The notes beneath the pieces were generated by a model that made no database searches, had not been told where the DNA came from, and was given only the letters and a program-made list of their open reading frames with translations. Source: Teretinema zuelzerae (GTDB lineage: Bacteria > Spirochaetota > Spirochaetia > Treponematales > Treponemataceae). Taken from it: DNA of 64,000 bases. Of this stretch, positions 5,481 to 27,038 are shown piece by piece. The translations under genes and the position numbers were made by a program. The stretch lies in the NCBI RefSeq assembly GCF_021021555.1, contig NZ_JAINWA010000003.1:1302001-1366000 (forward strand), written 5' to 3'. How positions within the stretch are numbered: position 1 is the first letter of the stretch; every line of letters starts with the position of its first letter.

Positions 5481-5517
5481 ATTCATGCGCGCATCGATGT
5501 GTGAAAGATGCTTGCCT

Positions 5518-5546
5518 AAATTATCAGAGGACCATTGTTTTGTCAA
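5518..5546 (-). promoter_or_regulatory. sigma70 promoter of the tRNA/ribosomal operon
   Basis: On the minus strand: TTGACA (5546-5541), 17-nt spacer, TAATTT (5523-5518). This near-consensus promoter should start transcription at about 5511, just before tRNA-Thr. It is the only strong promoter seen ahead of the whole operon. Confidence 0.85.
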
Positions 5547-5626
5547 TACCGAAAACAAAAACGGATCGCTTTTTTCCGGTAGCCAAAAGACGGGAGCCTC
5601 ACTATATTATTCACGAGGAGCGACGC

Positions 5627-6484
5627 ATGACCAACCTGGACGAACGGATCGAGCGCATTTTAACCAGCTACGAAGAATTCGGCGGAATCAATCTGACCGA
5701 CAATCAACACTTTCCCAACCGGCAAACCGTAGTCGAGGTTATCTGCGACCTGGAAAACATCATTTTCCCCGGATTCCGGGAAAACACTTCGATTGATCGC
5801 GAATCGCTGCGCTTCGTGACAGGAGAGCGGCTCCACCGGGTAGCCCTCAAGCTCACCGGAGAGGTCCTGAAGGCCATTAAATACATCTGCGAAATATCCC
5901 AACGCGAAGGGAAAGGGTGCTATAAATACGCCGAACAGATAGTGCTCGCGCTCATCGATGAAATACCCGAATTCCGCCGATTATCCGTTACGGACGCGCA
6001 GGCGGCCCTCGACGGAGATCCGGCGGCGAGAAGCGTCGAGGAAGTAATTCTATCGTACCCGGGGCTGGAAGCCCTGTTAGTCCACCGGATAGCGCACTTC
6101 CTGCATTCCAAGGGCGTTCCCATCATCCCCCGGATGATGAGCGAATACGTGCATGGAAAAACCGGCATAGACATTCATCCGGGCGCGAAAATCGGGGAAG
6201 AGTGCTTTATCGATCACGGAACAGGCGTGGTTATCGGGGAAACCTGCGTAATCGGAAAACATGTGAAGGTGTACCAGGGAGTAACGCTGGGAGCGCTCAG
6301 CGTGAAAAAGGCGATGGCAGACAAGAAAAGACATCCTACTATAGAAGATAACGTGACCATTTACGCCGGAGCGACCATTCTCGGGGGAGAAACGGTGATC
6401 GGAGAAGGAAGCGTGATCGGCGGAAACACCTGGATTACGGAAACCGTATCGCCGAAGAGCAGGATATACAATTGCCCAAGTTAA
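5627..6484 (+). CDS. cysE: Serine O-acetyltransferase
   Basis: Makes O-acetylserine from serine and acetyl-CoA, the first step of cysteine synthesis. The 285-aa product has an alpha-helical N-terminal half (to about residue 175) and a left-handed beta-helix of hexapeptide repeats. Active-site motifs [19 protein letters not shown] and [10 protein letters not shown] are present. The ATG at 5627 is chosen over upstream in-frame ATGs because GAGGAG lies 6 nt before it. The end overlaps the next gene by 13 nt. The N-terminal extension is of the longer kind seen in several anaerobes. Confidence 0.93.
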
Positions 6485-7056: not shown

Positions 7057-10000
7057 ATGAAAAACATGAAATCCTTTCGATATATATGTGCTTTCGCGGT
7101 TTGCGTTTTTTTTGTGCAGACGGGAGCGTGGGGAGCGATTTTTACCTGGGACGGCTCGGCTGCCGACGGGCTGTGGAATACTGCCGCAAACTGGACGCTA
7201 ACAGACAATACTGTTGCGGACGCCGGATTGGACGGGATTCCGAACGGAGTGGACTCGGCCCGAATTCCGCTTGCGCAAAGCATTACGACCGGCGGAGCGC
7301 TAACCGTGCAGGGGATTACCTTTACGGCCGGAGCAACGTTGACGCTGGGCGGAAACCTGACGATAAATGGCGACAACTGGGATCCGGACAACGCGCTCTA
7401 TCTTGAATCAACAGGGATAACGATAAATCTGGGCGGAAACGATATAACTGCGGGAAAAACGCACTTTGGACTAGATAATCAATGCGGGTTGACGGTTAAC
7501 GGGGCTGGAAATTTTACGACTAATACTGTTGACACCAGACAAACTGCGAACAACTCTCTCTTGTTGTATTCCGACGCGCGCTTCAAGATCACCTCCGGCG
7601 GATATCTCGACCATACCACCGGATCGATGCTTTTTTCCGGAGACAGTTCAAGTTCGATCGATCTGCCGACAGGGTTCACTGCACCGGCTCCGACAAATGT
7701 GACGATCGAAAATCTGCAAATTCTGGTTGCCGGAGTTTCGTTCTCCATAACAGCGACGCCGGAACTGACAACAGGACTCACGAGCGTTGTTAACATAACA
7801 GGAAGCTTTACCGACACTCAAACGTTCTTCTTTACCGCTACTGTGACAGACGCAGGAGTGACAACAAACGAGTCGTACACGATAAACGGAACTGCATACA
7901 CCGATTCTGTAGCTGCAAAAACAGCCCTCGGAACGCCGGCAGCAGGTACGCCGAACACCTTCAGCAGAAACATAACCATTCCCGCGACTGTCGATGCCGG
8001 AGACGGAATACTCATTCAGTTCTATATGTCCGCCAGTTATCTCCCTATCGGATCGGTTCAGTATGTGCAGGCTGGAAAGGAATGGACGAATAACGGAGGC
8101 ACCGGCGACGGTTTTTGGGCGACCGCAGTAAACTGGGACCCGGCGGGCGTTCCGACAGGGACAGACATCGTCACGATTCCTTCCGGAGGAACGCCGACTA
8201 TCGCGGCGGGAACGACCGCGACAGCGAAAAGAGCGACGGTACAAACCGGGGCGACGCTTACTTTTGGAAACGGAAGCACGCTCAACGCGGATAAAATAAA
8301 CAACAACGGAACCGTCATCCTGGAAGGAAGCGCAACGCTCCCATCAACCAGGACCAACGGCCTGAACAGCACCATAGAGTATGCAGGAGCCGGAACTCCG
8401 ATCTGGGGATCGACGTATGAAAACCTCACAATAAACGCCAGCGGAACTATTACAGCGACGTCTGCATTGGTTGTGAATGAAGATTTAGCGGTGACAGCGG
8501 GAACGCTGACGGCGCAGGGAAATCTTTCTGTTTCGGGAGCGCTTTCAATAAGCGGCGCGGGAAGCGCGAATTTCAACGCTGGCGCGGGCGCGCAGGCCAC
8601 AAGCGCGAATAGCGTCAGCTTTTCGACGACGGGAACAGTCGGCCTGGGCAACGACTCAGGAGATTCCTTTGCCGCAACGACAGGAAACCTCGCCCTCGGA
8701 GGGGCAGCGTCTTTCGCGCTCGCGGGTACGATAAATGCGGGAGGAACCATAACGCTCGGCGAAAACGCATCGCTTGCGGCCGATACGGTATTCTCCAAAG
8801 CGGCCGCGTTGACGGGATCGGTCAATATGACGACTGGAGGCAACGATCTTACCCTCACGGGAGGATTCGACTGCGACGGCAATACAATCACGCTGACCGG
8901 CGGCGGCACGCTGAACAATCCCGTTTCCATCGCAGTAGGCACCGGAACGCTGAATTTCGCAGACGGAACCCTGGCAGGAGCAGGAAGCGTTTCAATAAGC
9001 ACGGGAACCCTCAAAATTACCGGGACGGCGGCAAGCCTCACGGTGACAGATAACTCGATTATTAACATGCAAGGCGCCATAACGACGTTGACGGTGAGCG
9101 GAGGGGTCCCGACGGTTACCGGAACAGGAACCGGACTTACCATTGGCGGGAATCCCGGCGGGGCGATTTCGACCGATGGTACCGTAACAATTACCGGAAC
9201 CGCATTCACCGATATTACAAACTCCGGAACGCTGACTATCAGCAACGCGGCGACTTTGTCGGGCAATCTTGTAGTAACAGCGGGAAGCGTAAGCGCGAGC
9301 AGTACGCTCGGGGTCGGGGGGAATGTCGAAATCGAACTGGGAACCACGCTGAATATTGGCGGAGTTCTAACGGTTACGGGCAACTGGACAGATAACGGAG
9401 CGACTTTTACCCATAACTTGAATGGAGTCGTTTTTACGCCAGCAGCCTTGGGAACATCGACCATTACCGGCGATACTGATTTTGCTGATTTAACATGCGC
9501 GAATCAGGGAGGGGAAACTCTGTCCATCGCTGGAGATATCGGCGTGACGGGAACGCTTACCCTGAGCGGAACAGGAACAGCCGACAGGCTCATAATTACG
9601 GGCGCAGGATCGATCGATTTGACGGCTCCGCAAACTACAGGACAATATCTTCTCGTCGATCCTGACATTAATATTGCGACTAGCACATACACCGCATACT
9701 CCAGCCGAGCGAGCGGTACTCCTCCGGCAGGATGGGTTTTATATGCGTCCGCGAACGGTTCCCCGGTAACATGGACAGGGGCAGGGATTAACGCGAACTG
9801 GGATAATCCGGACAACTGGGGCGCGTTGGCTGTACCGGGAAGCGTAGACGAGGTAGTTATTCCGAATATCGGACCATCGACAAATTACCCGGTCGCGAAT
9901 GTCGCGGTGAATGCCGCAGAGATTACGGTCGACGCGAATGCAGAGTTTACCGGGAACGGACAATCGATCAACGCAACCGGAGATTTCAGCAATTCGGGAA

Positions 10001-10785
10001 CAGTCAGACTGGTCGGAACCGAATCGATAGCGATAGGCGGAACGACTACGAACGTTGCGGGAAGCACCGTCGAATATAACGGAACGGGAAGCGCGGTATG
10101 GCCGAACGACGCGTATCAGAACCTGACGATAACCGCGGCGGGCGTTGTCTCGCTGGGAACCGATGCGGTGACGGTTGCAGGAACGTTACTAAACGAAGGC
10201 GAGATCAATGTAAACGGTACGGGAAGCATCAATACATCAGACGCCGCAAACGGAACATTCCGATACAGCGGAACCGATCAGCCAGTGCCGACGCTTGATG
10301 GATACAACAACCTCATCATTGATTGCACAGGAGACGCGACTGCGGGAGGCGATATAACGGTAGGCGGGGACCTGACGTTGACGACAGGAACGCTTGTCAT
10401 GGGTGCGAACGGTCTTACTGCGGCCAACATTTCAGGAGGATCAGGGATCACAACAAGTGGAGTCATTACTGCTACCGGAACTATCACAACACTGAACGCA
10501 ACCACCGGAGCTACGCTTAACGGCGGCGCAGGGCTGACCATCACGAACGCAATAGCCGGCAACCCGAACCTCACCCTTACAGGAAGCATAACGCTTAACG
10601 GCGCGGTTGGAACAATTTCAAATCCGGGAACACTCACGCTAAACGGATCGTTGACATCAGGAGCCATCACCAATACCGGCACGGTCGCTGTAGGCGGTCA
10701 AGAACTTACCGCTGCAAGCATCTCTGGGGGATTGTTTCGACAACCAGCGGTATCATCAGTACCACCGGAACTATCACAACACTGA
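7057..10785 (+). CDS. Giant repetitive secreted surface protein, N-terminal open frame
   Basis: First piece of a 16.4-kb locus (7057-23430). The ATG has AGGAG 9 nt upstream. A signal peptide (hydrophobic core ICAFAVCVFFVQTG, cleavage likely after GAWGA, residue 27) is followed by Thr/Gly/Asn-rich beta-helix sequence of autotransporter or filamentous-adhesin type. Three copies of a W-x-G...G-x-W...NW module lie near residues 30, 345 and 905. From 10435 the 97-aa tandem repeats begin. At 10726-10730 the G tract is G5 rather than G6, so the frame shifts and stops at 10785 after 19 aberrant residues. No homologue with known function is recognised; the role is probably adhesion or surface display. 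Confidence 0.75.
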   Translation: MKNMKSFRYICAFAVCVFFVQTGAWGAIFTWDGSAADGLWNTAANWTLTDNTVADAGLDGIPNGVDSARIPLAQSITTGGALTVQGITFTAGATLTLGGNLTINGDNWDPDNALYLESTGITINLGGNDITAGKTHFGLDNQCGLTVNGAGNFTTNTVDTRQTANNSLLLYSDARFKITSGGYLDHTTGSMLFSGDSSSSIDLPTGFTAPAPTNVTIENLQILVAGVSFSITATPELTTGLTSVVNITGSFTDTQTFFFTATVTDAGVTTNESYTINGTAYTDSVAAKTALGTPAAGTPNTFSRNITIPATVDAGDGILIQFYMSASYLPIGSVQYVQAGKEWTNNGGTGDGFWATAVNWDPAGVPTGTDIVTIPSGGTPTIAAGTTATAKRATVQTGATLTFGNGSTLNADKINNNGTVILEGSATLPSTRTNGLNSTIEYAGAGTPIWGSTYENLTINASGTITATSALVVNEDLAVTAGTLTAQGNLSVSGALSISGAGSANFNAGAGAQATSANSVSFSTTGTVGLGNDSGDSFAATTGNLALGGAASFALAGTINAGGTITLGENASLAADTVFSKAAALTGSVNMTTGGNDLTLTGGFDCDGNTITLTGGGTLNNPVSIAVGTGTLNFADGTLAGAGSVSISTGTLKITGTAASLTVTDNSIINMQGAITTLTVSGGVPTVTGTGTGLTIGGNPGGAISTDGTVTITGTAFTDITNSGTLTISNAATLSGNLVVTAGSVSASSTLGVGGNVEIELGTTLNIGGVLTVTGNWTDNGATFTHNLNGVVFTPAALGTSTITGDTDFADLTCANQGGETLSIAGDIGVTGTLTLSGTGTADRLIITGAGSIDLTAPQTTGQYLLVDPDINIATSTYTAYSSRASGTPPAGWVLYASANGSPVTWTGAGINANWDNPDNWGALAVPGSVDEVVIPNIGPSTNYPVANVAVNAAEITVDANAEFTGNGQSINATGDFSNSGTVRLVGTESIAIGGTTTNVAGSTVEYNGTGSAVWPNDAYQNLTITAAGVVSLGTDAVTVAGTLLNEGEINVNGTGSINTSDAANGTFRYSGTDQPVPTLDGYNNLIIDCTGDATAGGDITVGGDLTLTTGTLVMGANGLTAANISGGSGITTSGVITATGTITTLNATTGATLNGGAGLTITNAIAGNPNLTLTGSITLNGAVGTISNPGTLTLNGSLTSGAITNTGTVAVGGQELTAASISGGLFRQPAVSSVPPELSQH

Positions 10786-13700
10786 ACGCAACCACCGGAG
10801 CTACGCTTAACGGCGGCGCAGGGCTGACCATCACGAATGCAATAGCCGGCAACCCAAACCTCACCCTTACAGGAGATGTGACCCTTGAAGGCTCGGTTGG
10901 AACAATTTCAAACTCGGGCACTCTTACACTCAGCGGATCGCTGACATCAGGAGCCATCACCAATACCGGCACGGTCGCTGTAGGCGGTCAAGAACTTACC
11001 GCTGCAAGCATTTCTGGGGGGATTGTTTCGACAACCAGCGGTATCATCAGTACCACCGGAACTATCACAACACTGAACGCAACCACCGGAGCTACGCTTA
11101 ACGGCGGCGCAGGGCTGACCATCACGAACGCAATAGCCGGCAACCCGAACCTCACCCTTACAGGAAGCATAACGCTTAACGGCGCGGTTGGAACAATTTC
11201 AAATCCGGGAACACTCACGCTAAACGGATCGTTGACATCAGGAGCCATCACCAATACCGGCACGGTCGCTGTAGGCGGTCAAGAACTTACCGCTGCAAGC
11301 ATCTCTGGGGGGATTGTTTCGACAACCAGCGGTATCATCAGTACCACCGGAACTATCACAACACTGAACGCAACCACCGGAGCTACGCTTAACGGCGGCG
11401 CAGGGCTGACCATCACGAATGCAATAGCCGGCAACCCAAACCTCACCCTTACAGGAGATGTGACCCTTGAAGGCTCGGTTGGAACAATTTCAAACTCGGG
11501 CACTCTTACACTCAGCGGATCGCTGACATCTGGAGCCATCACCAATACCGGCACGGTCGCTGTAGGCGGTCAAGAACTTACCGCTGCAAGCATCTCTGGG
11601 GGGATTGTTTCGACAACCAGCGGTATCATCAGTACCACCGGAACTATCACAACACTGAACGCAACCACCGGAGCTACGCTTAACGGCGGCGCAGGGCTGA
11701 CCATCACGAACGCAATAGCCGGCAACCCGAACCTCACCCTTACAGGAAGCATAACGCTTAACGGCGCGGTTGGAACAATTTCAAACTCGGGCACTCTTAC
11801 ACTCAGCGGATCGCTGACATCAGGAGCCATCACCAATACCGGCACGGTCGCTGTAGGCGGTCAAGAACTTACCGCTGCAAGCATCTCTGGGGGGATTGTT
11901 TCGACAACCAGCGGTATCATCAGTACCACCGGAACTATCACAACACTGAACGCAACCACCGGAGCTACGCTTAACGGCGGCGCAGGGCTGACCATCACGA
12001 ACGCAATAGCCGGCAACCCGAACCTCACCCTTACAGGAAGCATAACGCTTAACGGCGCGGTTGGAACAATTTCAAATCCGGGAACACTCACGCTAAACGG
12101 ATCGTTGACATCAGGAGCCATCACCAATACCGGCACGGTCGCTGTAGGCGGTCAAGAACTTACCGCTGCAAGCATCTCTGGGGGGATTGTTTCGACAACC
12201 AGCGGTATTATCAGTACCACCGGAACTATCACAACACTGAACGCAACCACCGGAGCTACGCTTAACGGCGGCGCAGGGCTGACCATCACGAATGCAATAG
12301 CCGGCAACCCAAACCTCACCCTTACAGGAGATGTGACCCTTGAAGGCTCGGTTGGAACAATTTCAAACTCGGGCACTCTTACACTCAGCGGATCGCTGAC
12401 ATCAGGAGCCATCACCAATACCGGCACGGTCGCTGTAGGCGGTCAAGAACTTACCGCTGCAAGCATCTCTGGGGGGATTGTTTCGACAACCAGCGGTATC
12501 ATCAGTACCACCGGAACTATCACAACACTGAACGCAACCACCGGAGCTACGCTTAACGGCGGCGCAGGGCTGACCATCACGAATGCAATAGCCGGCAACC
12601 CGAACCTCACCCTTACAGGAAGCATAACGCTTAACGGCGCGGTTGGAACAATTTCAAATCCGGGAACACTCACGCTAAACGGATCGCTGACATCTGGAGC
12701 CATCACCAATACCGGCACGGTCGCTGTAGGCAGTCAAGAACTTACCGCTGCAAGCATCTCTGGGGGGATTGTTTCGACAACCAGCGGTATCATCAGTACC
12801 ACCGGAACTATCACAACACTGAACGCAACCACCGGAGCTACGCTTAACGGCGGCGCAGGGCTGACCATCACGAACGCAATAGCCGGCAACCCGAACCTCA
12901 CCCTTACAGGAGATGTGACCCTTGAAGGCTCGGTTGGAACAATTTCAAACTCGGGAACACTCACGCTAAACGGATCGCTGACATCAGGAGCCATCACCAA
13001 TACCGGCACGGTCGCTGTAGGCGGTCAAGAACTTACCGCTGCAAGCATCTCTGGGGGGATTGTTTCGACAACCAGCGGTATCATCAGTACCACCGGAACT
13101 ATCACAACACTGAACGCAACCACCGGAGCTACGCTTAACGGCGGCGCAGGGCTGACCATCACGAACGCAATAGCCGGCAACCCGAACCTCACCCTTACAG
13201 GAAGCATAACGCTTAACGGCGCGGTTGGAACAATTTCAAATCCGGGAACACTCACGCTAAACGGATCGTTGACATCAGGAGCCATCACCAATACCGGCAC
13301 GGTCACTGTAGGCGGTCAAGAACTTACCGCTGCAAGCATCTCTGGGGGGATTGTTTCGACAACCAGCGGTATCATCAGTACCACCGGAACTATCACAACA
13401 CTGAACGCAACCACCGGAGCTACGCTTAACGGCGGCGCAGGGCTGACCATTACGAATGCAATAGCCGGCAACCCGAACCTCACCCTTACAGGAAGCATAA
13501 CGCTTAACGGCGCGGTTGGAACAATTTCAAATCCGGGAACACTCACGCTAAACGGATCGCTGACATCAGGAGCCATCACCAATACCGGCACGGTCGCTGT
13601 AGGCGGTCAAGAACTTACCGCTGCAAGCATCTCTGGGGGATTGTTTCGACAACCAGCGGTATCATCAGTACCACCGGAACTATCACAACACTGAACGCAA

Positions 13701-15594
13701 CCACCGGAGCTACGCTTAACGGCGGCGCAGGGCTGACCATCACGAACGCAATAGCCGGCAACCCGAACCTCACCCTTACAGGAAGCATAACGCTTAACGG
13801 CGCGGTTGGAACAATTTCAAACTCGGGCACTCTTACACTCAGCGGATCGCTGACATCAGGAGCCATCACCAATACCGGCACGGTCGCTGTAGGCGGTCAA
13901 GAACTTACCGCTGCAAGCATCTCTGGGGGATTGTTTCGACAACCAGCGGTATCATCAGTACCACCGGAACTATCACAACACTGAACGCAACCACCGGAGC
14001 TACGCTTAACGGCGGCGCAGGGCTGACCATCACGAACGCAATAGCCGGCAACCCGAACCTCACCCTTACAGGAAGCATAACGCTTAACGGCGCGGTTGGA
14101 ACAATTTCAAATCCGGGAACACTCACGCTAAACGGATCGTTGACATCAGGAGCCATCACCAATACCGGCACGGTCGCTGTAGGCGGTCAAGAACTTACCG
14201 CTGCAAGCATCTCTGGGGGGATTGTTTCGACAACCAGCGGTATTATCAGTACCACCGGAACTATCACAACACTGAACGCAACCACCGGAGCTACGCTTAA
14301 CGGCGGCGCAGGGCTGACCATCACGAATGCAATAGCCGGCAACCCAAACCTCACCCTTACAGGAGATGTGACCCTTGAAGGCTCGGTTGGAACAATTTCA
14401 AACTCGGGCACTCTTACACTCAGCGGATCGCTGACATCAGGAGCCATCACCAATACCGGCACGGTCGCTGTAGGCGGTCAAGAACTTACCGCTGCAAGCA
14501 TCTCTGGGGGGATTGTTTCGACAACCAGCGGTATCATCAGTACCACCGGAACTATCACAACACTGAACGCAACCACCGGAGCTACGCTTAACGGCAGCGC
14601 AGGGCTGACCATCACGAATGCAATAGCCGGCAACCCGAACCTCACCCTTACAGGAAGCATAACGCTTAACGGCGCGGTTGGAACAATTTCAAATCCGGGA
14701 ACACTCACGCTAAACGGATCGCTGACATCTGGAGCCATCACCAATACCGGCACGGTCGCTGTAGGCGGTCAAGAACTTACCGCTGCAAGCATCTCTGGGG
14801 GGATTGTTTCGACAACCAGCGGTATCATCAGTACCACCGGAACTATCACAACACTGAACGCAACCACCGGAGCTACGCTTAACGGCGGCGCAGGGCTGAC
14901 CATCACGAACGCAATAGCCGGCAACCCGAACCTCACCCTTACAGGAGATGTGACCCTTGAAGGCTCGGTTGGAACAATTTCAAACTCGGGAACACTCACG
15001 CTAAACGGATCGTTGACATCAGGAGCCATCACCAATACCGGCACGGTCGCTGTAGGCGGTCAAGAACTTACCGCTGCAAGCATCTCTGGGGGGATTGTTT
15101 CGACAACCAGCGGTATCATCAGTACCACCGGAACTATCACAACACTGAACGCAACCACCGGAGCTACGCTTAACGGCGGCGCAGGGCTGACCATCACGAA
15201 TGCAATAGCCGGCAACCCGAACCTCACCCTTACAGGAAGCATAACGCTTAACGGCGCGGTTGGAACAATTTCAAATCCGGGAACACTCACGCTAAACGGA
15301 TCGCTGACATCTGGAGCCATCACCAATACCGGCACGGTCGCTGTAGGCGGTCAAGAACTTACCGCTGCAAGCATCTCTGGGGGGATTGTTTCGACAACCA
15401 GCGGTATTATCAGTACCACCGGAACTATCACAACACTGAACGCAACCACCGGAGCTACGCTTAACGGCGGCGCTGGGCTGACCATCACGAACGCAATAGC
15501 CGGCAACCCGAACCTCACCCTTACAGGAGATGTGACCCTTGAAGGCTCGGTTGGAACAATTTCAAACTCGGGCACTCTTACACTCAGCGGAGCC
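10435..15594 (+). repeat. Tandem array of 291-bp (97-aa) repeats, 17 full plus one partial
   Basis: Unit starts are at 10435, 10726, 11016, 11307, 11598, 11889, 12180, 12471, 12762, 13053, 13344, 13635, 13925, 14215, 14506, 14797, 15088 and 15379, marked by a TCT-G(n)-ATT tract at every start but the first. Fourteen tracts are G6 and three (10726, 13635, 13925) are G5. Two sequence types occur in the second half of units: GSITLNGAVG..NPGTLTLNG and GDVTLEGSVG..NSGTLTLSG, plus hybrids. Units 5-9 match units 12-16 in type and in private variants, indicating a 2037-bp (7-unit) duplication. Confidence 0.95.
10878..13694 (+). CDS. Giant surface protein, middle open frame (no start of its own)
   Basis: Continuation of the 7057 gene in the -1 frame; the coding frame is really open from 10731, and the ATG... 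the GTG-like start at 10878 has no ribosome site, so this is not an independent gene. It encodes nine complete 97-aa repeats (SGGIVSTTSGIISTTG at the head of each). At 13635-13639 the G tract is again G5, and the frame is lost, stopping at 13694. One repeat (13640-13924) is then read in the third frame before the next G5 tract at 13925 returns the reading to the original frame. Confidence 0.6.
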   Translation: MTLEGSVGTISNSGTLTLSGSLTSGAITNTGTVAVGGQELTAASISGGIVSTTSGIISTTGTITTLNATTGATLNGGAGLTITNAIAGNPNLTLTGSITLNGAVGTISNPGTLTLNGSLTSGAITNTGTVAVGGQELTAASISGGIVSTTSGIISTTGTITTLNATTGATLNGGAGLTITNAIAGNPNLTLTGDVTLEGSVGTISNSGTLTLSGSLTSGAITNTGTVAVGGQELTAASISGGIVSTTSGIISTTGTITTLNATTGATLNGGAGLTITNAIAGNPNLTLTGSITLNGAVGTISNSGTLTLSGSLTSGAITNTGTVAVGGQELTAASISGGIVSTTSGIISTTGTITTLNATTGATLNGGAGLTITNAIAGNPNLTLTGSITLNGAVGTISNPGTLTLNGSLTSGAITNTGTVAVGGQELTAASISGGIVSTTSGIISTTGTITTLNATTGATLNGGAGLTITNAIAGNPNLTLTGDVTLEGSVGTISNSGTLTLSGSLTSGAITNTGTVAVGGQELTAASISGGIVSTTSGIISTTGTITTLNATTGATLNGGAGLTITNAIAGNPNLTLTGSITLNGAVGTISNPGTLTLNGSLTSGAITNTGTVAVGSQELTAASISGGIVSTTSGIISTTGTITTLNATTGATLNGGAGLTITNAIAGNPNLTLTGDVTLEGSVGTISNSGTLTLNGSLTSGAITNTGTVAVGGQELTAASISGGIVSTTSGIISTTGTITTLNATTGATLNGGAGLTITNAIAGNPNLTLTGSITLNGAVGTISNPGTLTLNGSLTSGAITNTGTVTVGGQELTAASISGGIVSTTSGIISTTGTITTLNATTGATLNGGAGLTITNAIAGNPNLTLTGSITLNGAVGTISNPGTLTLNGSLTSGAITNTGTVAVGGQELTAASISGGLFRQPAVSSVPPELSQH

Positions 15595-18500
15595 CTCGAT
15601 GTGAACGGCAACCTCAACATAACAGCGGGAATACTTGCTGCAAACGGCAACAACATCACGCTCGCGGGCAACTGGACCAATAGCGGAACTTTTACCTCAG
15701 GAGGCGGCACGCAGACTGTCACCTTTGACGGCGCGACTAATCAGTCGATCGTCTCGGGGGCAGCAAGCTTCAATAATCTAGTTGTTAACAAGACAGCTGG
15801 CACACTTAACCTCGGAACAATAACTTTTAATGTTACCGAAGCAATGAATGTACTACAGGGAGCGTTTTCGCAAAACGGCGATAATACAGCGCCTCCTCTT
15901 CCCGCCAGAATTCAAACACTCGGTTCGCTGACCGTTGGAGCAGGGGCAACCTGCGTGTGGGATAATCCGGCTGCCGGCGGAGATCTGACGATTAATGGAA
16001 ACCTCGTAAACGGCGGAACGTTGAACTTCAATAACAAGCAGGTAACGATCGGGGGAACGGTGACGGGAAACGTGACGTTCCTGGATCTTATCATACCGAG
16101 CGGAAAAACGGTTGCGCAGCAACCAGCTTCAAGCATAAGGGTTCTGAGACATTTCACTATTGAGAATGGCGGATTTTATGTCCACAACGGGATGCCGTTG
16201 ATTCTTGGAGGCGGCTCCATAATAACGGGCACTATACGCGATGATAATGCTGCGCTGAACGTTCTTCAGAGTCTTGGCGCGGTAACGATCGATTCAGGCG
16301 GAGCGGGAACTGTCAAAACGCTACAAACAGATATTGAAGCCGTAAGCATAACAGTGAATGCAAACGCTTCTGCATCAATTACCGGAAGCTCACTCACCGT
16401 GAACGGAAATCTCTCCGGAACCGGAACCGTGACGGCGGCGGGAAGCCAGAACATCGACGTGAACGGAAACCTTTCGACGGCGACGGTAAATCTCAACACA
16501 TCGAGTGCGACGATAAATATAACAGGAAACTTTACGCCGGCGGCATTCACTGCCGGAAACTCCACGGTTATCTTCGACGGCGCCGGATCGGTCATCGACA
16601 GGCCGGCAGGCGGTTACTCGTTCTACAATCTGACGATGGCCCTGAGTTCTGCGGCGTCGCTGCTTCAGGCATCCGAGGAAATCACCGTGACGAACCAGTT
16701 CACGATGACGAGCGGGGATTTCTGGGCAGGAACTTTCACCCATCTGATAGCCGGGAACTGGAATTCTTCGGGAGAGGACGTGACGTGGAACGAGACATCT
16801 GCGGGAAGTTCCACGATCCGGATGACGGACGGGGCGCCGAACATAACAGCAAAAGCAGCCGACCGATTCTACAACCTGATCTTGAACTCGGGCGGAACAA
16901 TCGCGGCCTCGACGCCAAGCGGAACCGTAACAGTGCTCGGCACGTTTACGGCCGCGGCGAACGGAACGGGCGGAACTCTTATCCTTACAGGAAACGACAC
17001 GCTTTCGGTCGCGGGAGCTTTCGACCTCCGTCCCGGAACTACGGGCGCGAGTCTGACGGAAAACACAAGCACAGTCGTTCTTGCGGGATCCGGAGACCAG
17101 ACGGCGAGAACCAACAACCAATCATTCAACAACCTTACCATCAACGGACGGTCAAGCGGAACGGTGACTTTCACCGACGCGCTGAATGTCACGAACCCAG
17201 CTGCGGGACTGACCGCAGGAGCGGGCGCCTACAATATAGCGATCAACGACGGCGGCTCGGCGGCGAATTATGTCACCTTCAATAACACCGGAACGCTTAC
17301 CATCAACACCTCAGATGCGGAAACCTTCTCGCTTCCGCTGGGAGCCGAAAAGACCTCGGGAGAAAAGATTCTCTCCGGAACCATCGCGCTATCCGGCGCG
17401 GCGAACTTCAACTTCGGGACGGCAGGACAGGTTTCCATTCCGGTGAATTGCAGGATCGGGGGATCGACGGGAACCATTACGCTCCGGGACGCCGTGATCG
17501 AGAACGGGGCGACCCTGACGCTCGGAAACGCGGGAACCGCATCGGCTAACGTCATAGCCCTTAACTCTACGAGCGGTACGGCGGGCGGAACCCCGTCGAA
17601 CATAACATTCGACAATCTGAACGCGAATGTTACAGTCGCGGGGAACATCGGAACGGACATCGGAACGGTCAGCCTCGTTAAAACCGGAGGACTCGCGAGA
17701 TTCGCCGGAGACATTTCCGCTGCGACTCTTTCGACGAGCGCAGGCGCGTTCAATATCAGAATCGAAGGCGGAACTGGAACGGCAACCGCCACGACGATCA
17801 CGAACGCTGCCGTCTTCAACAACTCGGGATTCCTCGCGCTCGGAAACGCCCTGGATGACGAGTTCGTCTTTGCCGCGGGCTTTACGCATACAGCCGGCGC
17901 GACGGAGCTCTTCGGCGACTTCAATACGACGAACGCAGCGATAAGCCTCGCGGCGGCGACGCTTGCCGGACAGACTGAAATAACGACCTCGACCGCAGCG
18001 GCATCGGGCGGAACCATTACGATGGCCTCGCTCGCCGGACCCTTCGCGCTCGGCGTAACGGCGGGAACCGGAAACATTTCGATTACCGGCGCGACCGGAG
18101 CGAACGACGCGACGAGACTCGGCGCGATAACTATCAGCTCGGCGGGAAACGCGAGCTTCGGCGGCGCGGTCTACTGCCAGAGCCTCGCGCAAACCGCGGG
18201 AAGCGGAACGACGAGCTTTGCCGGCATTCTCGACATGAGCGGAGCGGCGGGAGCAGACCTTAACGGAACGAACTTCTCGTTCGCCGGAGCGGTCGCGTCG
18301 GCAGGCCCGCTCGACATAACGCACACGGGAACGCTCATTCTCCCGGACGCGGCGGACTGCGTTCTCCAGGGACGCTTCCTCCAGGACGGCGCCGGCACGG
18401 TTTCGCTCGGGGCCGATATTTCCACAACCGGAGACGCGATAACCTTCACAGGGCCGATCACGCTCACGCACAACGCGGCGTTCAACGCGACCGCGGGAGG

Positions 18501-21500
18501 AAGCGCTGCCGGAGCCGACGTGCTCCTCGACGCGGGGGCAACGCTCGACGGACCCTTTAACCTTGCAATCGAGGCGGGAGCAGGAACCATCGTGTTCAGC
18601 GAAAACATCGGAGCGTCCCAGGCCGTCGGCGACGGAACGGGAGCTTCGGTAACCGCGATCACTTCTGCGACTGCAGCTGACGCGGTCTATTTCCCTGGAA
18701 CCGTACGGACCAACAACGGACTCAGCGTTCAGGGAAACGCGACGGCGACGGAAAACATCTCGGTGCTCGGAAGCGAAACGGGAACAGTATTCACCAAAAA
18801 CACAGTGCTCGACGGACTCGATTTCGCGAGCGCGGGAAGCATAACATTCGGAAGCTCGGCGGCGAACACCCTCGTGTTGTCGGCGGGGGCGGTGCTCATC
18901 GACGCGGACGGCTCGCTCACCGTGAACGCGCGAACGGACGGGGCGCAGGATTTGACGCTCGCAGTAACTGGCGGCTCGATCTTCAACGGAGCGGTTGGAA
19001 GCGCGACCGCGATCGGCGACGGAACAGGCGCTTCGATTACGATCAACTCTACCGGAGCCACGCTCTTCGAAACGGGCGCGACAGTAAGGACGGCGACGGG
19101 AATCTCGCAGGCGAACGCTGCGGGAACCGTTACCTTCAGGGCGAACGTCTCGGTGCTTTCGGCCGAGACGCCTTCTGCCTTCCAGGGAAATCTCGCGATC
19201 AACACGGCGGAGGACTTTGCGTTCGATACGGCGGGAGAACTCGCAATCGGAAACGCGGCGACCAACACGCTCGAGGTAACCGGAGCGGCCGGAAATACGG
19301 CGACTTTCAGAACGAGGGATCCGGCGAACGGAAGGATTACGCTTAACTCCGCGGCGTCTTCTGCCCTTTCGGTCAGGATCGAAAACGCAGGAGTTTTCAG
19401 AACCAACGAGGACGCGGACTTGACGCTTTCCGGAAGCGCGGCGTTCACGCAGACTGCTCCGGCCGCGCCAATCGCGACGATAACCGATAACCGGGCGATG
19501 ATCGCCGGAAGCATCGCGAGCGCGGGAGGAGCGATCCGCTTCGACTCCGAAACCTTCATCTTTGGCAGCGCGGGAGACATGACGCTCGAAGCCGCCGGAA
19601 ACGCCGCAAGCGATTCGATCTACTTTGCGCAGGATCGCCACGTCGCGGCCGGAGACGGAACGGCCAACAAGACGGTCGTGTTCGGTTCTCCTGCGAGCTC
19701 GGGAAGAAACATCATACTGACCCAGGGACGGCTCGGCTTCGGAACTACCGCCGCGCGAAGGGCGCTTACATCGGCGCTCGACCAGGTCTATTTGAACGGA
19801 AACCCCGCCGACATGTTCGCGGACGCGGATTCAGGGGTCGCCTCGCTCCGCGCGTACGAAAATGCCGCGAGGGCCGGGCTTACGGCTTCCGTGAACGGCT
19901 CGGTCAGAAACGCCTACCCGGACGGAAGCGCGATTCCGGCTCTCTATACGGGTGAAATCGACGGCGCGACCTTGTCGGGAAAAACTATTTTTATCGGGAA
20001 AAACTTCTATGCGAACGGAACGGATTTCGCGGCGGCAGACGCGGCGAATCCCTGGACGATTTCGCTGCCGGACAATAACGACGCTCTCGCCGCCTTCGCG
20101 GAAGCCTACCGCTCGGAAATCGCAAACTCGCGCGTAACCGTGCAGGGTTCGGAGGCGACCGGCGCGGCCGGCGATTTCTTCGCCTGGGTGAGCGCGGCGG
20201 AGAATTGCACCGACGGCGGCGGAAACGCGGTCGCGGCCTCTGACGACGGAACGCTCAGCGTCTCGGCGGGCTGGTCGTTCTCGCGACCCTACCTGCTCGC
20301 GGAAAACTCAAGCCTCGCTACCGGCGCGGCATTGAGCGGAACGTATACGGTGTTCGACGACGTGGTGCGAGTGGAGTTCCGCGACGAAGCGGGCAACGCG
20401 CGGAGAATTGAAAACTCCCGCGGAGAGATCGCACAGGCGGTCGCGAACGGAGCGGTCACCTTCAACGGCGACGGAACCGCGCGAACCGCATTCTCCGGCG
20501 CGTTCAAGGACCCTGCCTGCACGGTCGGAACAGACGACGTTTCCATCCCGAACGAAAAGGGAGAACTCGTAGACCTTTCGGTATTTTATCTCAGAACCGA
20601 TCCGGCGGATCCGGCCCAACGGTGGAACACTGACGCGACAGGAATGTCCCCGGGAGACGTAGACGCATCGGATGGAACAACCAGCTCAGACCGAGGACGA
20701 AACGCGGACGCGACCTACGCGGCGGCTTCTCCGGCGACCCGGAACAGCGTGCCCGATATGGAAATCAGCAAGGCGACCGCCCTCCTCTACCAGACGCTCC
20801 GGGACGAACACAAGAACCGGATCGCGCGATATACCGGAGAAAGCGCGACACCGGCCGCGGCGAACGCCCTTCCCGGCGCGAGATTCACGGCGACGGGTGA
20901 CCGCTGCCGCCCCGCCCTCGTGGAAGTTCTCGCCGGGCAGGAACTCCACGTCTCGGACCCGAAAAACAACGCGGCGAATTACTTCGCCTGGGACGGACAC
21001 AACTACCTGGAGCTTCGCTGGTCCGAACCGGTCGATATCGGCGGCCTCGCTGATTCCGGCGCCCTCGCGCGAAATGTGCGAAGCACCAGCGACTTCGACG
21101 CTTCCACGCCCTACGGCGGAGCCCTCCGCATGAGCGGCTCTAGCCTCGTGCTTTCCGGATACTTCACCGCCCTGCAGGGTGCGGCCCCGGAAGCGCTCGC
21201 CTGGCAGGACGGAACGCGAAACCTCGTTTCTGCACCGGCGGACGCAGCAGACGCGCTCACCGCGAACTCTCTGTACCGCATCTTCGATCTCGCGTCCACC
21301 CAGGCAAAACTCGAGGGCGGAACGCTCGCGGAAGCGGCCCATCCCCACCGCCTGCGCGTCTACCTCGCCGGCTACGCGGACGCCCTCCCGGCGAACGCCG
21401 CCGCATGGAAGTGGTTCTGGCCCGGCTATATAGAAAACATCTCCGACCCGACCGGAGCGGAAATCCGCGCGGCCGCGAACTCCCTTATCCGCGACCGGGC

Positions 21501-23430
21501 GGCCTACGCGAACGCGGTGGAAGCATACGCCGACGCCGATTCGGTTTACGGCAGAACGACAGCCTCGGGAATCGAGGCCGCCACGTCAAATAAAGCCGCG
21601 ATCGCCGCCGCCCGCCACGACGCCGGCGGAACGGAACGCAGCTGGGACACCGTGTTCCCTGACGTCGCAGCCTTCCGCACGCGGACCGGCTGGACCGAAT
21701 CGCGAACCGTATTCGAATCGAGCCCGGTGGACACCAACAGCGACGGTTTCATGGACCGCGTGGAATTCCACGTATTCGACGACCTTCCCGCGTACGCGGA
21801 AACGGAAGACTGGCAGTGGGTCAGCTCGCGCGGATGGTACGCGGGAAGCGGACGCGACGACTCGGACCTCGCCCTGGCCGTGCCCGACCAACGCGGCGGC
21901 ATGAGAAGCGCCTCGGCCCTCTCGGGAATCGCCGGAGACGGATCGTTCCAGGTCAGCGCGGCCGGCTTCTCGTTCTCGAACGCGGCTACAGGACTGACCA
22001 ACGCGTACAGCACGGAAATCGGAACGACCGTCACGGACAACATCTTCAACCCCGACGGAGTCGTCAGCCTCATGGACGACGGATATCTCGCGGTATTCCT
22101 TTCTGGCCTCCAGTGGCGTATGACCGAGCAGATGTACTACGCCTACAACGAAAGCGCGAACTGGCTCACCGACCACGCGGGACTCAGGCTCAAGAGCCAC
22201 GGCCCGCGCATGTGCCTCAACAAGACGCCGCCTGAGTTCACCTTCACCGTGCAGCCCATGACCCTGCCGGGTGCCTCGAGCCCGACCGACCGCCGGCTCT
22301 ACATCCTCTTCTCCAAGCGCGTAGACGTGCAGGGGCTTGAACAAAAGCTCCGGCTCATCGACTCGAACGGCGACAACCTGATCGACCAAACCGTGCCCGC
22401 GCAATCGCCGAGTTCGGGAGCGTCCGGCGCGGACGCCTCCTGGGACGCAGTGGTCGCCCTGACGCGCGACCTCACCCTCCAGGAAATCCAGAGCCTCGTA
22501 GTCGCGCCTGAACCGGTATCGAAAATCGACCCCGACACGGGAACGACCTTCCAGGTTTCGGACATCGTAGACGAACAGCTGAACGCCATGCGGAGCGACT
22601 CGACCCATCGCGTCACCGACTTCGGCATCAACCTCGCCATGCCGCTGTACGCATCGGACGGCATCAACGCCGACGGAACCTTCGGCGCCGGACAGGGAGC
22701 GCTGCGCACCTTCGACGGAACCGGACGGCTCCTCGACCGCGACATCACCCTCTCGGTGCAGATCAATACGGGAACGACAGCCGACGTCGCCGCCTCCTCG
22801 AGCATGCAGGTCTACTTCGACGTAAACCCGGACAGCCTCGCCTACCCGGTTCTCTTCAACGACCTCTTCTCCGCGGGGCTCAAGATATGGCTGCCGGCGA
22901 TACTGCCCTCGTTCAACAACAAGGCGAACTTCGAAGCCCGCTCGCTCACGCCGGAGGTCACGCGAGACAACGGCAGGATCAGGAATTTCATCCTCCCCTC
23001 GAGCGACGCGGAAATCAAAACGGGGGCAAAGGTGGAGTTCATCTTCAAGTACGGAGACCTCTTCTGCGCCCGCCTTTCAGATCCGGCCGACATCACCAGC
23101 GTCGACCCCTGGCGCTTCTCGATCTCCGCCCTGAAAACGCAGCGCGGCGGCGTGACGATTCTGAACAACGTCATCGACTCGAACAAGCGCGAAAAAACGC
23201 TCCTGACGGTCGAAATGCCCAAGTCCGGAAACCTCGTCATCCACGTCTTCACCATGGACGGCAACATCGTGCGCACGCTTGAACGCAACAAAAAAGGAGC
23301 CGGCACCTACACCTACTCCTGGGACGGAACGAACCTCGCCGGAAACCCCGTCGCCCGCGGAATGTACTTCATCCGCGTCGTCGGCCCGGAAATGGACGAG
23401 ATTCGAAAAGTCATGGTTGTAAAAGAATAA
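14140..23430 (+). CDS. Giant surface protein, C-terminal open frame with FlgD-like Ig domain
   Basis: Last piece of the 7057 locus, in the same frame as its N-terminus; the true in-frame reading begins at 13930. It holds the last five repeats, then about 1300 residues of non-identical beta-helix repeats, then a roughly 1200-residue unique region rich in Ala/Asp. The last 90 residues (MPKSGNLVIHVFTMDGNIVRTLE, then YSWDGTNLAGNPVARGMYFIRV) match the FlgD_ig/T9SS-like C-terminal Ig domain found on large secreted proteins. If the three missing G residues are restored, the whole locus encodes 5458 aa. No catalytic domain is recognised. Confidence 0.75.
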   Translation: MTSGAITNTGTVAVGGQELTAASISGGIVSTTSGIISTTGTITTLNATTGATLNGGAGLTITNAIAGNPNLTLTGDVTLEGSVGTISNSGTLTLSGSLTSGAITNTGTVAVGGQELTAASISGGIVSTTSGIISTTGTITTLNATTGATLNGSAGLTITNAIAGNPNLTLTGSITLNGAVGTISNPGTLTLNGSLTSGAITNTGTVAVGGQELTAASISGGIVSTTSGIISTTGTITTLNATTGATLNGGAGLTITNAIAGNPNLTLTGDVTLEGSVGTISNSGTLTLNGSLTSGAITNTGTVAVGGQELTAASISGGIVSTTSGIISTTGTITTLNATTGATLNGGAGLTITNAIAGNPNLTLTGSITLNGAVGTISNPGTLTLNGSLTSGAITNTGTVAVGGQELTAASISGGIVSTTSGIISTTGTITTLNATTGATLNGGAGLTITNAIAGNPNLTLTGDVTLEGSVGTISNSGTLTLSGALDVNGNLNITAGILAANGNNITLAGNWTNSGTFTSGGGTQTVTFDGATNQSIVSGAASFNNLVVNKTAGTLNLGTITFNVTEAMNVLQGAFSQNGDNTAPPLPARIQTLGSLTVGAGATCVWDNPAAGGDLTINGNLVNGGTLNFNNKQVTIGGTVTGNVTFLDLIIPSGKTVAQQPASSIRVLRHFTIENGGFYVHNGMPLILGGGSIITGTIRDDNAALNVLQSLGAVTIDSGGAGTVKTLQTDIEAVSITVNANASASITGSSLTVNGNLSGTGTVTAAGSQNIDVNGNLSTATVNLNTSSATINITGNFTPAAFTAGNSTVIFDGAGSVIDRPAGGYSFYNLTMALSSAASLLQASEEITVTNQFTMTSGDFWAGTFTHLIAGNWNSSGEDVTWNETSAGSSTIRMTDGAPNITAKAADRFYNLILNSGGTIAASTPSGTVTVLGTFTAAANGTGGTLILTGNDTLSVAGAFDLRPGTTGASLTENTSTVVLAGSGDQTARTNNQSFNNLTINGRSSGTVTFTDALNVTNPAAGLTAGAGAYNIAINDGGSAANYVTFNNTGTLTINTSDAETFSLPLGAEKTSGEKILSGTIALSGAANFNFGTAGQVSIPVNCRIGGSTGTITLRDAVIENGATLTLGNAGTASANVIALNSTSGTAGGTPSNITFDNLNANVTVAGNIGTDIGTVSLVKTGGLARFAGDISAATLSTSAGAFNIRIEGGTGTATATTITNAAVFNNSGFLALGNALDDEFVFAAGFTHTAGATELFGDFNTTNAAISLAAATLAGQTEITTSTAAASGGTITMASLAGPFALGVTAGTGNISITGATGANDATRLGAITISSAGNASFGGAVYCQSLAQTAGSGTTSFAGILDMSGAAGADLNGTNFSFAGAVASAGPLDITHTGTLILPDAADCVLQGRFLQDGAGTVSLGADISTTGDAITFTGPITLTHNAAFNATAGGSAAGADVLLDAGATLDGPFNLAIEAGAGTIVFSENIGASQAVGDGTGASVTAITSATAADAVYFPGTVRTNNGLSVQGNATATENISVLGSETGTVFTKNTVLDGLDFASAGSITFGSSAANTLVLSAGAVLIDADGSLTVNARTDGAQDLTLAVTGGSIFNGAVGSATAIGDGTGASITINSTGATLFETGATVRTATGISQANAAGTVTFRANVSVLSAETPSAFQGNLAINTAEDFAFDTAGELAIGNAATNTLEVTGAAGNTATFRTRDPANGRITLNSAASSALSVRIENAGVFRTNEDADLTLSGSAAFTQTAPAAPIATITDNRAMIAGSIASAGGAIRFDSETFIFGSAGDMTLEAAGNAASDSIYFAQDRHVAAGDGTANKTVVFGSPASSGRNIILTQGRLGFGTTAARRALTSALDQVYLNGNPADMFADADSGVASLRAYENAARAGLTASVNGSVRNAYPDGSAIPALYTGEIDGATLSGKTIFIGKNFYANGTDFAAADAANPWTISLPDNNDALAAFAEAYRSEIANSRVTVQGSEATGAAGDFFAWVSAAENCTDGGGNAVAASDDGTLSVSAGWSFSRPYLLAENSSLATGAALSGTYTVFDDVVRVEFRDEAGNARRIENSRGEIAQAVANGAVTFNGDGTARTAFSGAFKDPACTVGTDDVSIPNEKGELVDLSVFYLRTDPADPAQRWNTDATGMSPGDVDASDGTTSSDRGRNADATYAAASPATRNSVPDMEISKATALLYQTLRDEHKNRIARYTGESATPAAANALPGARFTATGDRCRPALVEVLAGQELHVSDPKNNAANYFAWDGHNYLELRWSEPVDIGGLADSGALARNVRSTSDFDASTPYGGALRMSGSSLVLSGYFTALQGAAPEALAWQDGTRNLVSAPADAADALTANSLYRIFDLASTQAKLEGGTLAEAAHPHRLRVYLAGYADALPANAAAWKWFWPGYIENISDPTGAEIRAAANSLIRDRAAYANAVEAYADADSVYGRTTASGIEAATSNKAAIAAARHDAGGTERSWDTVFPDVAAFRTRTGWTESRTVFESSPVDTNSDGFMDRVEFHVFDDLPAYAETEDWQWVSSRGWYAGSGRDDSDLALAVPDQRGGMRSASALSGIAGDGSFQVSAAGFSFSNAATGLTNAYSTEIGTTVTDNIFNPDGVVSLMDDGYLAVFLSGLQWRMTEQMYYAYNESANWLTDHAGLRLKSHGPRMCLNKTPPEFTFTVQPMTLPGASSPTDRRLYILFSKRVDVQGLEQKLRLIDSNGDNLIDQTVPAQSPSSGASGADASWDAVVALTRDLTLQEIQSLVVAPEPVSKIDPDTGTTFQVSDIVDEQLNAMRSDSTHRVTDFGINLAMPLYASDGINADGTFGAGQGALRTFDGTGRLLDRDITLSVQINTGTTADVAASSSMQVYFDVNPDSLAYPVLFNDLFSAGLKIWLPAILPSFNNKANFEARSLTPEVTRDNGRIRNFILPSSDAEIKTGAKVEFIFKYGDLFCARLSDPADITSVDPWRFSISALKTQRGGVTILNNVIDSNKREKTLLTVEMPKSGNLVIHVFTMDGNIVRTLERNKKGAGTYTYSWDGTNLAGNPVARGMYFIRVVGPEMDEIRKVMVVKE

Positions 23431-23444
23431 AGACCGAGGCAGGA
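23429..23444 (+). repeat. Dispersed 16-bp element, copy 1
   Basis: AAAGACCGAGGCAGGA overlaps the stop codon of the giant gene and is repeated exactly at 37418-37433, just after the U32 gene. In both places a GGCGGCGC block follows. GACCG here can pair with CGGTC about 40 nt downstream, so the element may be part of a terminator family. Confidence 0.5.
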
Positions 23445-23554
23445 AGGGCAACGGGAGGCGGCGCCGCACGGTCGGAGCCCCCTCCCGGCCAGTCCTTGCC
23501 GGGGCGCATCGCTCCTCGCCGCCCGTCAGCCGATTGCGGCCGCGGCGGCTGCCC

Positions 23555-23622
23555 CGCTTACCGACAGAGTGCCGCGCTTACCGGCGGCGTGTCACGCTTA
23601 CCGGCGGCTGTCGCGCTTACCG
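23555..23622 (+). repeat. Four CGCTTACCG repeats with 19-20 nt period
   Basis: CGCTTACCG occurs at 23555, 23575, 23595 and 23614, linked by GC-rich spacers with GGCGGC. The array ends 1 nt before the stop codon of the GNAT gene on the other strand. No gene is seen in 23431-23623. Confidence 0.7.
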
Positions 23623-23623
23623 G

Positions 23624-24268
23624 CTACGAATTCCTCACATACGATCTGATCAGCATCTTAAAAAGTTCCTGACTATAGTGAAACGCTTTTTCCTTTTTCT
23701 CGAATTGAGAGTCGAATTCCTCTGCTTCACGCCTGTCAAAGTCGAACGCATCGCTTTGTTGCGCTTTCCACTTTTTGCCGCCGAGGAAACCATCCCGAGT
23801 TTCCAGCACTAATAAGCCCAAGGGAAATTCGCCGGCCATGTTGCTTACGTTATAGTCGATCCCGTTTTTAAACCCGTGCGTGCAATAATTGTGAGGATCG
23901 CCGTAAATTGTAATCGCCGGTATTTCTCTTTCTTGCACTATCTGCCTGGTTTTTCGTATGAGCGCGCTGCCGATTCCTTTTCTCTGATAATCGGGATGCA
24001 CGCATAAGGGGCCGAAAGAAACGGTCTCGACCTTTTCTCCGTCTTCGCCGTGCAAATACGATTCGGTATACATGATCGATCCGACTATTTTTCCGTCTGC
24101 TTCGGCGATATAATCGAGTTCCGCAATAAAATCCTTATGACCGCGCAAGATATGGCATAAATAGTGCTCGTCGCATCCGGGACCATAGAGATTCCAAAAA
24201 GCTTCTCGCGTCATTTTTTCTACTTCCAGATAATCTCGCGGTTCTTCCAAACGCAGTTTGATGTCCAT
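23624..24268 (-). CDS. GNAT family N-acetyltransferase
   Basis: The 214-aa product has the acetyl-CoA binding motif A, VHPDYQRKGIGSALI (about residues 91-105), after the YIAEADGKIVGSIMY strand, as in YhbS-type acetyltransferases. Substrate is not predictable. An AGAGGA ribosome site precedes the ATG. The gene and the next two on this strand are visibly AT-richer than the surrounding GC-rich DNA. The C-terminal tail (residues 165-214, rich in Lys/Glu/Asp) goes beyond a minimal GNAT domain. Confidence 0.85.
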   Translation of the reverse strand: MDIKLRLEEPRDYLEVEKMTREAFWNLYGPGCDEHYLCHILRGHKDFIAELDYIAEADGKIVGSIMYTESYLHGEDGEKVETVSFGPLCVHPDYQRKGIGSALIRKTRQIVQEREIPAITIYGDPHNYCTHGFKNGIDYNVSNMAGEFPLGLLVLETRDGFLGGKKWKAQQSDAFDFDRREAEEFDSQFEKKEKAFHYSQELFKMLIRSYVRNS

Positions 24269-24321
24269 GCAATCCTCTTTATTTCACGAATGATCCAACC
24301 CTGATCAAACAGCTCCGGGCG

Positions 24322-24960
24322 TTAGGCGCTGCATCGCTTTACAACTTCTTTTAACTCTGCCATCGAATCGATTATTCTATAGTCGGCGTTCTCTTTTGTT
24401 TCCTGATGTCCGTTTCTGTATATAACGCAATCGGCTCCGATTGCCTGCGCTGCTTCGTAATCATGAAACATATCCCCGATGAAAAGAATTTTATCTTCTT
24501 TGCCGAATTCCGTTCTCAATTCTTTCGCCTTCTCAATTTTACTCACAACGGAAAAATCGTCGTTGCCGACTATCTTTTTGAAATACCGGGAAATGTTCTT
24601 TTCGGAAACCTGTACGTCCAAACTTTTCTGTTCGGAAGCGGAAACGATGTATTGGTCAATGTTGCATCCGTCGATATATTCCAGGATGCCTTCTATTTCA
24701 TTCGTCAACAGCATGGAGCTGAATCTTTGCTTATAGAGATGGTTGTACTCTTTCGCGATCGATTCAAACGATTCTTCCGAAAAATCGAATCCGATATCCA
24801 TATAAAAGCTCTTGATCGGCATTCGGAAGAACCGTTTATACGTCTCTTTGCCGATAACCGGCAGAGACCGCTTTTTCAACAACTCGTTCACAATGGAGAT
24901 ATTCTCGTCGACATCGTTCAGCAAGGTGCCGTTCCAATCCCATACAACTAATGAATACAC
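24322..24960 (-). CDS. HAD family hydrolase
   Basis: Cytoplasmic 212-aa haloacid-dehalogenase fold protein of the phosphoglycolate-phosphatase-like kind. Motif I is VVWDWNGTLLND, with Asn where most phosphatases have the second Asp; this DWNGT form occurs in a known HAD subgroup. Motif II is IVSASE and motifs III/IV are the Lys after IE and KILFIGDMFHDYEAA. The GTG at 24960 is chosen because AGGAG precedes it by 6 nt; an in-frame ATG at 24996 has no ribosome site. The stop codon lies in GCCTAAC, an integron-core-like heptamer. Confidence 0.8.
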   Translation of the reverse strand: MYSLVVWDWNGTLLNDVDENISIVNELLKKRSLPVIGKETYKRFFRMPIKSFYMDIGFDFSEESFESIAKEYNHLYKQRFSSMLLTNEIEGILEYIDGCNIDQYIVSASEQKSLDVQVSEKNISRYFKKIVGNDDFSVVSKIEKAKELRTEFGKEDKILFIGDMFHDYEAAQAIGADCVIYRNGHQETKENADYRIIDSMAELKEVVKRCSA

Positions 24961-25000
24961 GTTAACTCCTGAATGCCGTGAAATAGCCTCATGCATTAAA

Positions 25001-25543
25001 TCAATTTTTTTTCGTACGCAAAAAATAATGCTCGCCCTCGTATGCAGAGCCTTCATGGAAGCCTGTTTCCGCTAACGCTTTGCGCCTTTCAACGGCTTGG
25101 GGCATTGCCTTGGTGGCAATCGCATCAACCCCGAACAGATCAAAAAAGTTTTCGCCGCATACGTTAAATAGTTCGGCTAAATAACGGGCGTTTTCATATC
25201 CGGACAAAATATCGACACGAAGAATTCCTGTTGTAACTTTGTATGTTCCTACATACCCGAACATTTCCACTGTTCCGACAGCTTTGGACAAGGATCTATC
25301 CACAATCGCAAAGCGTATAAACTCTTGTTCGGAATAAGCAAAGAGCCAGGCTTTAATGCATTGAACCATGTCCTCGATTCGATACATGCAAAAATCGCCG
25401 GAACACCTGTCGGTATTAAACAGCGGTTGCGCCTTGCCGTCCGAATAGCATTTAAGCAGATCTTCTGAATCGGATTCAGATACGAGTCTTAACAAAAAGC
25501 TGTCTGTTTCAAAAACAGGGCATTCATCATAGGGATTTTTCAC
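25001..25543 (-). CDS. GNAT-type acetyltransferase (RimJ/RimL-like)
   Basis: 180-aa protein beginning VKNPYDECPVFETDSFLLRLV, the usual opening strand of RimJ/RimL-type acetyltransferases. FIRFAIVDRSLSKAVGTVEMFGY and the AVERRKALAETGFHEG C-terminus fit the fold, while the central acetyl-CoA loop is atypical (ENARYLAELFNVC). The GTG start at 25543 has AGGAG 7-8 nt upstream, better than ATGs at 25570 and 25561. It lies 40 nt upstream of the HAD gene and probably shares its transcript. Confidence 0.7.
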   Translation of the reverse strand: MKNPYDECPVFETDSFLLRLVSESDSEDLLKCYSDGKAQPLFNTDRCSGDFCMYRIEDMVQCIKAWLFAYSEQEFIRFAIVDRSLSKAVGTVEMFGYVGTYKVTTGILRVDILSGYENARYLAELFNVCGENFFDLFGVDAIATKAMPQAVERRKALAETGFHEGSAYEGEHYFLRTKKN

Positions 25544-25584
25544 GGAAACTCTCCTCGTCATAAAGAACAATTAAACTCCGGCGC

Positions 25585-27003: not shown

Positions 27004-27010
27004 GTCGGCT

Positions 27011-27038
27011 AGTATACACGCGGTTTATTATCGTTGAA
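27011..27038 (-). promoter_or_regulatory. Promoter of the GH43 gene (leaderless layout)
   Basis: On the minus strand TTCAAC (27038-27033), 16-nt spacer, TATACT (27016-27011), then 7 nt to the ATG. The -35 is weak but the -10 is good; the expected start point coincides with the start codon. Confidence 0.5.

Follow-up and report, generated by a model that had tools for sequence, protein, structure and literature searches.

In Neisseria, the tracts of a single repeated base that have been found to vary are mainly those of eight or more, and a meningococcal poly-C tract that alternates between C5 and C6 has also been reported (PMC5084427). In Treponema pallidum, a spirochaete that probably belongs to the same order as the organism studied here, G runs lie near surface-protein genes (tprE/G/J, tp0126 and tprL), at positions where run length could change the reading frame or the promoter; at tprL, length variation of 7-11 G has been measured within isolates (PMC7864442). 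The T. pallidum runs are single tracts, whereas the tracts described here are G5-6, lie inside a 291-bp coding repeat and are known from one assembly.

One-base changes of this type are also a known residue of sequencing. In corrected long-read assemblies the leftover errors are mostly homopolymer indels in repeats (PMC8442456), and residual homopolymer indels are also described for nanopore metagenome-assembled genomes (PMC9262707). Our locus shares with these cases the one-base losses, the near-identical repeats and unique DNA that is otherwise clean; here, error is the probable reading of three short tracts in the assembled consensus.

At the protein level, the predicted all-beta repeat is shared with the beta-helix adhesins, two-partner and autotransporter passengers such as EtpA, SepA and EspP. 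The C terminus, the signal-peptide-like start and a neighbouring cysE gene are shared with giant repeat proteins of Treponemataceae-like genomes, which end in FlgD_ig or T9SS-type-A-like domains and are encoded by single open frames of 2,300-7,300 codons. In contrast to our locus, those relatives have no near-identical 291-bp array.

Results

The window is a stretch of 64,000 nucleotides from Teretinema zuelzerae; it lies in contig C3 of a genome of 3.62 Mb that is assembled in three contigs and is 97% complete. A pattern count in the window found 17 tracts of the form TCT-G(n)-ATT, spanning 10723-15387. Fourteen are G6, against 0.04 expected by chance, and three are G5, with their TCT at 10723, 13632 and 13922. 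The first-pass annotation had described these tracts exactly. It had also placed a G tract in every repeat, which is correct for the 17 tracts but not for the unit at 10432-10722 that precedes the first of them and has none. Tract spacing is 291 bp, falling to 290 directly after every G5, and the G tract is the sole homopolymer longer than four in the array. The features are listed in Table 1.

Table 1. Features of the giant gene, its tandem array and its upstream neighbour (window coordinates)
Feature	Position	Strand	Basis
cysE-like serine O-acetyltransferase, conserved upstream neighbour	5501-6484	+	profile matches, orthologue neighbourhoods
5' part of giant gene: ATG with AGGAG box; N terminus resembling a signal peptide, followed by beta-rich repeats; ends at the 10783 stop, shortly after the first G5	7057-10785	+	ORFs, homology to relatives at N terminus
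Tandem array of 17.5 near-identical units of 291 bp, each of 97 codons; two types of unit intermixed	10474-15572	+	TRF, tract positions, unit comparison
G5 tract no. 1	10726-10730	+	tract positions
Central open part of this protein, covering nine units with G6; assembled frame off by one	10878-13694	+	ORF reading
Five-unit block, second copy at 13632-15084; between the copies, 3 substitutions and 2 tracts of unequal G length	11595-13049	+	unit comparison
G5 tract no. 2; unit otherwise equal to G6 unit at 11595	13635-13639	+	tract positions, unit comparison
G5 tract no. 3; unit otherwise equal to G6 units at 11013 and 11886	13925-13929	+	tract positions, unit comparison
3' open part of 3096 codons with the final units of the array, then a long region rich in beta and a conserved C-terminal region that ends in an FlgD_ig / T9SS-sorting-like part	14140-23430	+	ORFs, profile matches

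As assembled, the G5 tracts split one long frame into three. The frame of the start codon at 7057 yields 1242 amino acids before its stop, while the 3' stretch is again in that frame, after a net loss of 3 bases. The first-pass annotation had pointed out this return to frame. The arithmetic is right, but there is no functional effect: dozens of start-frame stops lie between 10783 and 13795, so the return is without translational meaning, and three losses that sum to one codon are a matter of about 1 chance in 3 if they are independent and need no explanation. A compensating frameshift was considered and is ruled out by the stops inside the shifted stretch. Reading the frame through the rest of the gene (about 5,400 codons) revealed no further stop or shift.

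The duplicated five-unit block allows the history of the tracts to be read. Outside the tract, the five pairs of corresponding units differ at 0, 0, 0, 2 and 1 positions; the first three pairs are therefore identical there, yet two of those three differ in the number of G. Over the whole block, tract length differs in 2 of 5 pairs, against 3 substitutions in about 1,425 bases. This comparison rules out that G5 was inherited together with its unit, and it follows that the G5 state either postdates the last duplication or is not real.

The start codon is preceded, nine bases upstream, by its AGGAG box. The predicted fold of the array is all beta: short strands follow one another in a solenoid-like run (mean pLDDT 74, pTM 0.63). 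The known structures that match it best, though weakly and without significance, are beta-helix adhesins, among them EtpA (E=0.31); none reached E 0.001 or better, and a profile search of the giant protein found no passenger, TPS or autotransporter domain, which sets it apart from EtpA, SepA and EspP. The C terminus matches FlgD_ig (PF13860, E=1.9e-9) and resembles a T9SS type A sorting domain at a score just under the cut-off (21.5 versus 23 bits); the structure model of this end is poor (mean pLDDT 42) and was set aside. A search for the T9SS protein SprA gave no match, nor did its control, so that this negative carries no weight. Differences among units change the amino acid at 12 of 27 sites where 69% are expected (p=0.006, in a rough test in which linked sites are not independent), and this poverty of amino-acid changes suggests that the repeats were translated until recently. 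The gene at 7057-23430 probably encodes a secreted, beta-solenoid surface protein. Its export, its location at the surface and a part in adhesion are what the signal-peptide-like N terminus and the predicted beta fold would suggest. Contig C1 of this genome encodes a second FlgD_ig protein (869763-871562), whose frame of 1,362 codons contains the domain three or four times.

The conserved C-terminal region ending in FlgD_ig places the protein in a family that we found in 58 of 118 sampled family genomes, with 39-57% identity in this region within the genus. Named matches come from Treponema sp., Spirochaetales and other Spirochaetes metagenome-assembled genomes and, further off, from Breznakiella and other Treponema ones. 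Immediately upstream of the gene the window has the cysE-like gene, and three orthologues within the genus have one there too. In relatives the gene is usually one open frame, of 2305-7311 codons, and in those one-contig genomes that were read it is a single open frame of 2,305-3,579 codons. The frame of 7,311 codons, in a same-genus orthologue (G034, contig C4, frame end near 77112; L015, L030), is unusually long for a bacterial gene.

The 291-bp unit itself has a narrower distribution. A first search of the genome contigs for other copies found nothing and a second returned relatives of the C-terminal region; the unit was not found in IMG/VR, and neither it nor a near-identical array is present in the same-genus genomes; the array was found in this genome only. 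Within the genus, several contigs break off before the gene is complete, and longer repeats in those genomes may have gone unassembled. Two orthologues from SZUA metagenome-assembled genomes have broken frames (L027:9601-10511; L028, reverse strand, N-terminal part). The breaks fall at the edges of near-identical repeats of 130-220 bp and not at G tracts; they are probably short-read misassemblies or misjoins, and we rejected them as a sign of phase variation conserved in the genus.

The quality of the assembly could be judged where sequence can be cross-checked. One sequence was assembled two times, at 20475-28092 of the 28-kb contig C2 and in the last 7.65 kb of C3. Comparing the two versions gives 48 gaps, 46 of one base, and only 2 substitutions, and each version breaks open reading frames that the other keeps open. 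These differences are raw long-read indel error, a pattern not expected of two real, diverged copies, and error-prone long reads are very probably the source of the assembly, which is not corrected everywhere. The contigs should probably be joined at these ends (L159/L171 in C2; L176:12371-20000 in C3), where genes are falsely broken. At about 41% G+C, against 57.6% in the window, the overlap region may be foreign DNA.

Elsewhere the main contigs look largely clean, also in dispersed repeats. The four copies of a 1.28-kb IS show no indels and equal A/T runs of 5-8; two IS66 copies differ by an indel solely at the edge, with all homopolymers in agreement; and the differences among four rRNA operons are mostly substitutions, besides a single T7 against T8 and a few other one-base gaps. 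The homopolymers in these controls are mostly A/T runs of 5 and none is a G6. Sampled stretches outside the window, 648 kb in all, contain 47 G/C runs of six or more in coding sequence, and a coding-frame scan of these stretches gave no convincing case of a homopolymer frameshift; the scan was crude, with leftover candidates judged by eye and one of them checked further. Short tracts in the array (3 of 17) can be set against frameshifted coding G/C runs elsewhere (0 of 47; p=0.016). Given the largely clean repeats and unique DNA, errors would have to be much more frequent in the array than in the rest of the chromosome. Such a difference is expected whether the G5 tracts are errors or real frameshifts.

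One candidate for a further frameshifted array in this genome (L144) proved to be a single open frame. A frame at L144:7756-10038, recognised by eye as a GspE/PilB-like ATPase, has in-frame repeats of 63-bp period (DARAGHADAQAQLPGAQ...) following its CPECRGAG motif, an odd insertion for a normally compact protein. In a 20-kb stretch (L058; C3, 1800001-1820000), many segments of 0.6-1.4 kb recur as dispersed copies that are 95-99% identical, possibly a variable gene family or an IS cluster. A search for an IS240-type transposase found nothing.

Discussion

We consider it likely that the three G5 tracts are consensus errors, made in sequencing or assembly, and that the gene at 7057-23430 is intact, with about 5,460 codons. 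The contig overlap carries uncorrected one-base indels; the G5 state was not inherited with its unit in the duplicated block; the changes are all losses, at the only run longer than four in the array; relatives, one-contig genomes included, keep the gene in one open frame; no further break interrupts it; the differences among its units are poor in amino-acid changes; and residual errors of long reads are mostly homopolymer indels within repeats (PMC8442456). Of the two readings that the first-pass annotation had offered, homopolymer miscalls in a hard-to-assemble array are the better supported, given the indels in the overlap and a tract length that is independent of unit ancestry. On this account the locus would be one giant gene in which recent amplification brought the central 291-bp unit to 17.5 copies. 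Error-prone long reads would lose one base at the longest homopolymer of the array, and correction would fail among near-identical units because reads from units with a correct G6 call match those units more closely. We infer from the pattern that errors like those in the overlap acted here and that correction failed in this way. The tract k-mers TCTGGGGGATT and TCTGGGGGGATT would be expected at a ratio of about 3:14 if the G5 tracts are real and of about 0:17 if they are errors.

In the main rival reading, slippage recently removed a base from each short tract for real, and this lineage carries the gene as a young pseudogene; this seems to us rather unlikely. The first loss would end translation at 10783, and the later ones would be free to accumulate in a dead stretch. 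The tract differences in the duplicated block, set against its few substitutions, are of the order that a slippage hot spot might produce under relaxed selection, and the steadiness of homopolymers in other repeats and in unique sequence, with the excess of short tracts in the array, suits this reading too. It has to contend with about 5,400 codons that hold no other disabling change, with relatives in which the gene is intact and with an assembly that demonstrably holds one-base indel errors. Nor would the full-length protein easily be rescued if the deletions were real: G runs can support slippage in principle, but restoring the frame by ribosomal or transcriptional slippage would take three separate corrections per message, each inefficient at a run of five, while the 14 G6 units were read without a slip, and we regard a tolerated G5 of this kind as extremely improbable.

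The other reading offered by the first-pass annotation was a contingency locus, in which the 17 G tracts, by slipping or by recombining with one another, toggle the gene between the full-length surface protein, a 5458-aa adhesin in its terms, and a 1242-aa secreted stub, with the assembly caught in the OFF state. This we judge improbable, and the proposal has gained no positive support. A tract-length change would switch expression here, since going from G6 to G5 shifts the frame into the stop at 10783 and translation stops no more than about 60 bases after any G5 in the array; one G tract recurs in many copies within a surface-protein gene, the tracts vary inside one assembly where other repeats do not, and the C5/C6 alternation in meningococcus means that short tracts are no absolute bar (PMC5084427). 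However, hypermutable tracts are about 7-8 bases or longer, and G5-G6 is short beside the eight or more of Neisseria (PMC5084427) and the 7-11 of T. pallidum tprL (PMC7864442). The genome has two MutS-family (mutS-like) genes, its 3.6 Mb contain just six sites with eight or more G, all of them G8-9 and none of 10 or more, no same-genus genome has the unit or the array, and an OFF state requires one loss, not three. A distributed form of the same idea, in which each unit brings a short G tract, any single loss switches the giant surface protein off, and unequal recombination between units, in place of slippage at a single long tract, removes the mutated unit and switches it back on, appears more doubtful still.

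If the three G5 tracts are errors, the locus should be annotated as one intact gene for a giant surface protein, and frame breaks in long-read repeat arrays need checking before they are called pseudogenes or phase switches. If they are real and variable, the array would represent a contingency design with many short tracts instead of one long one. The family of giant, FlgD_ig-ended repeat proteins, which about half of the family genomes sampled here encode and which is largely unnamed, merits attention.
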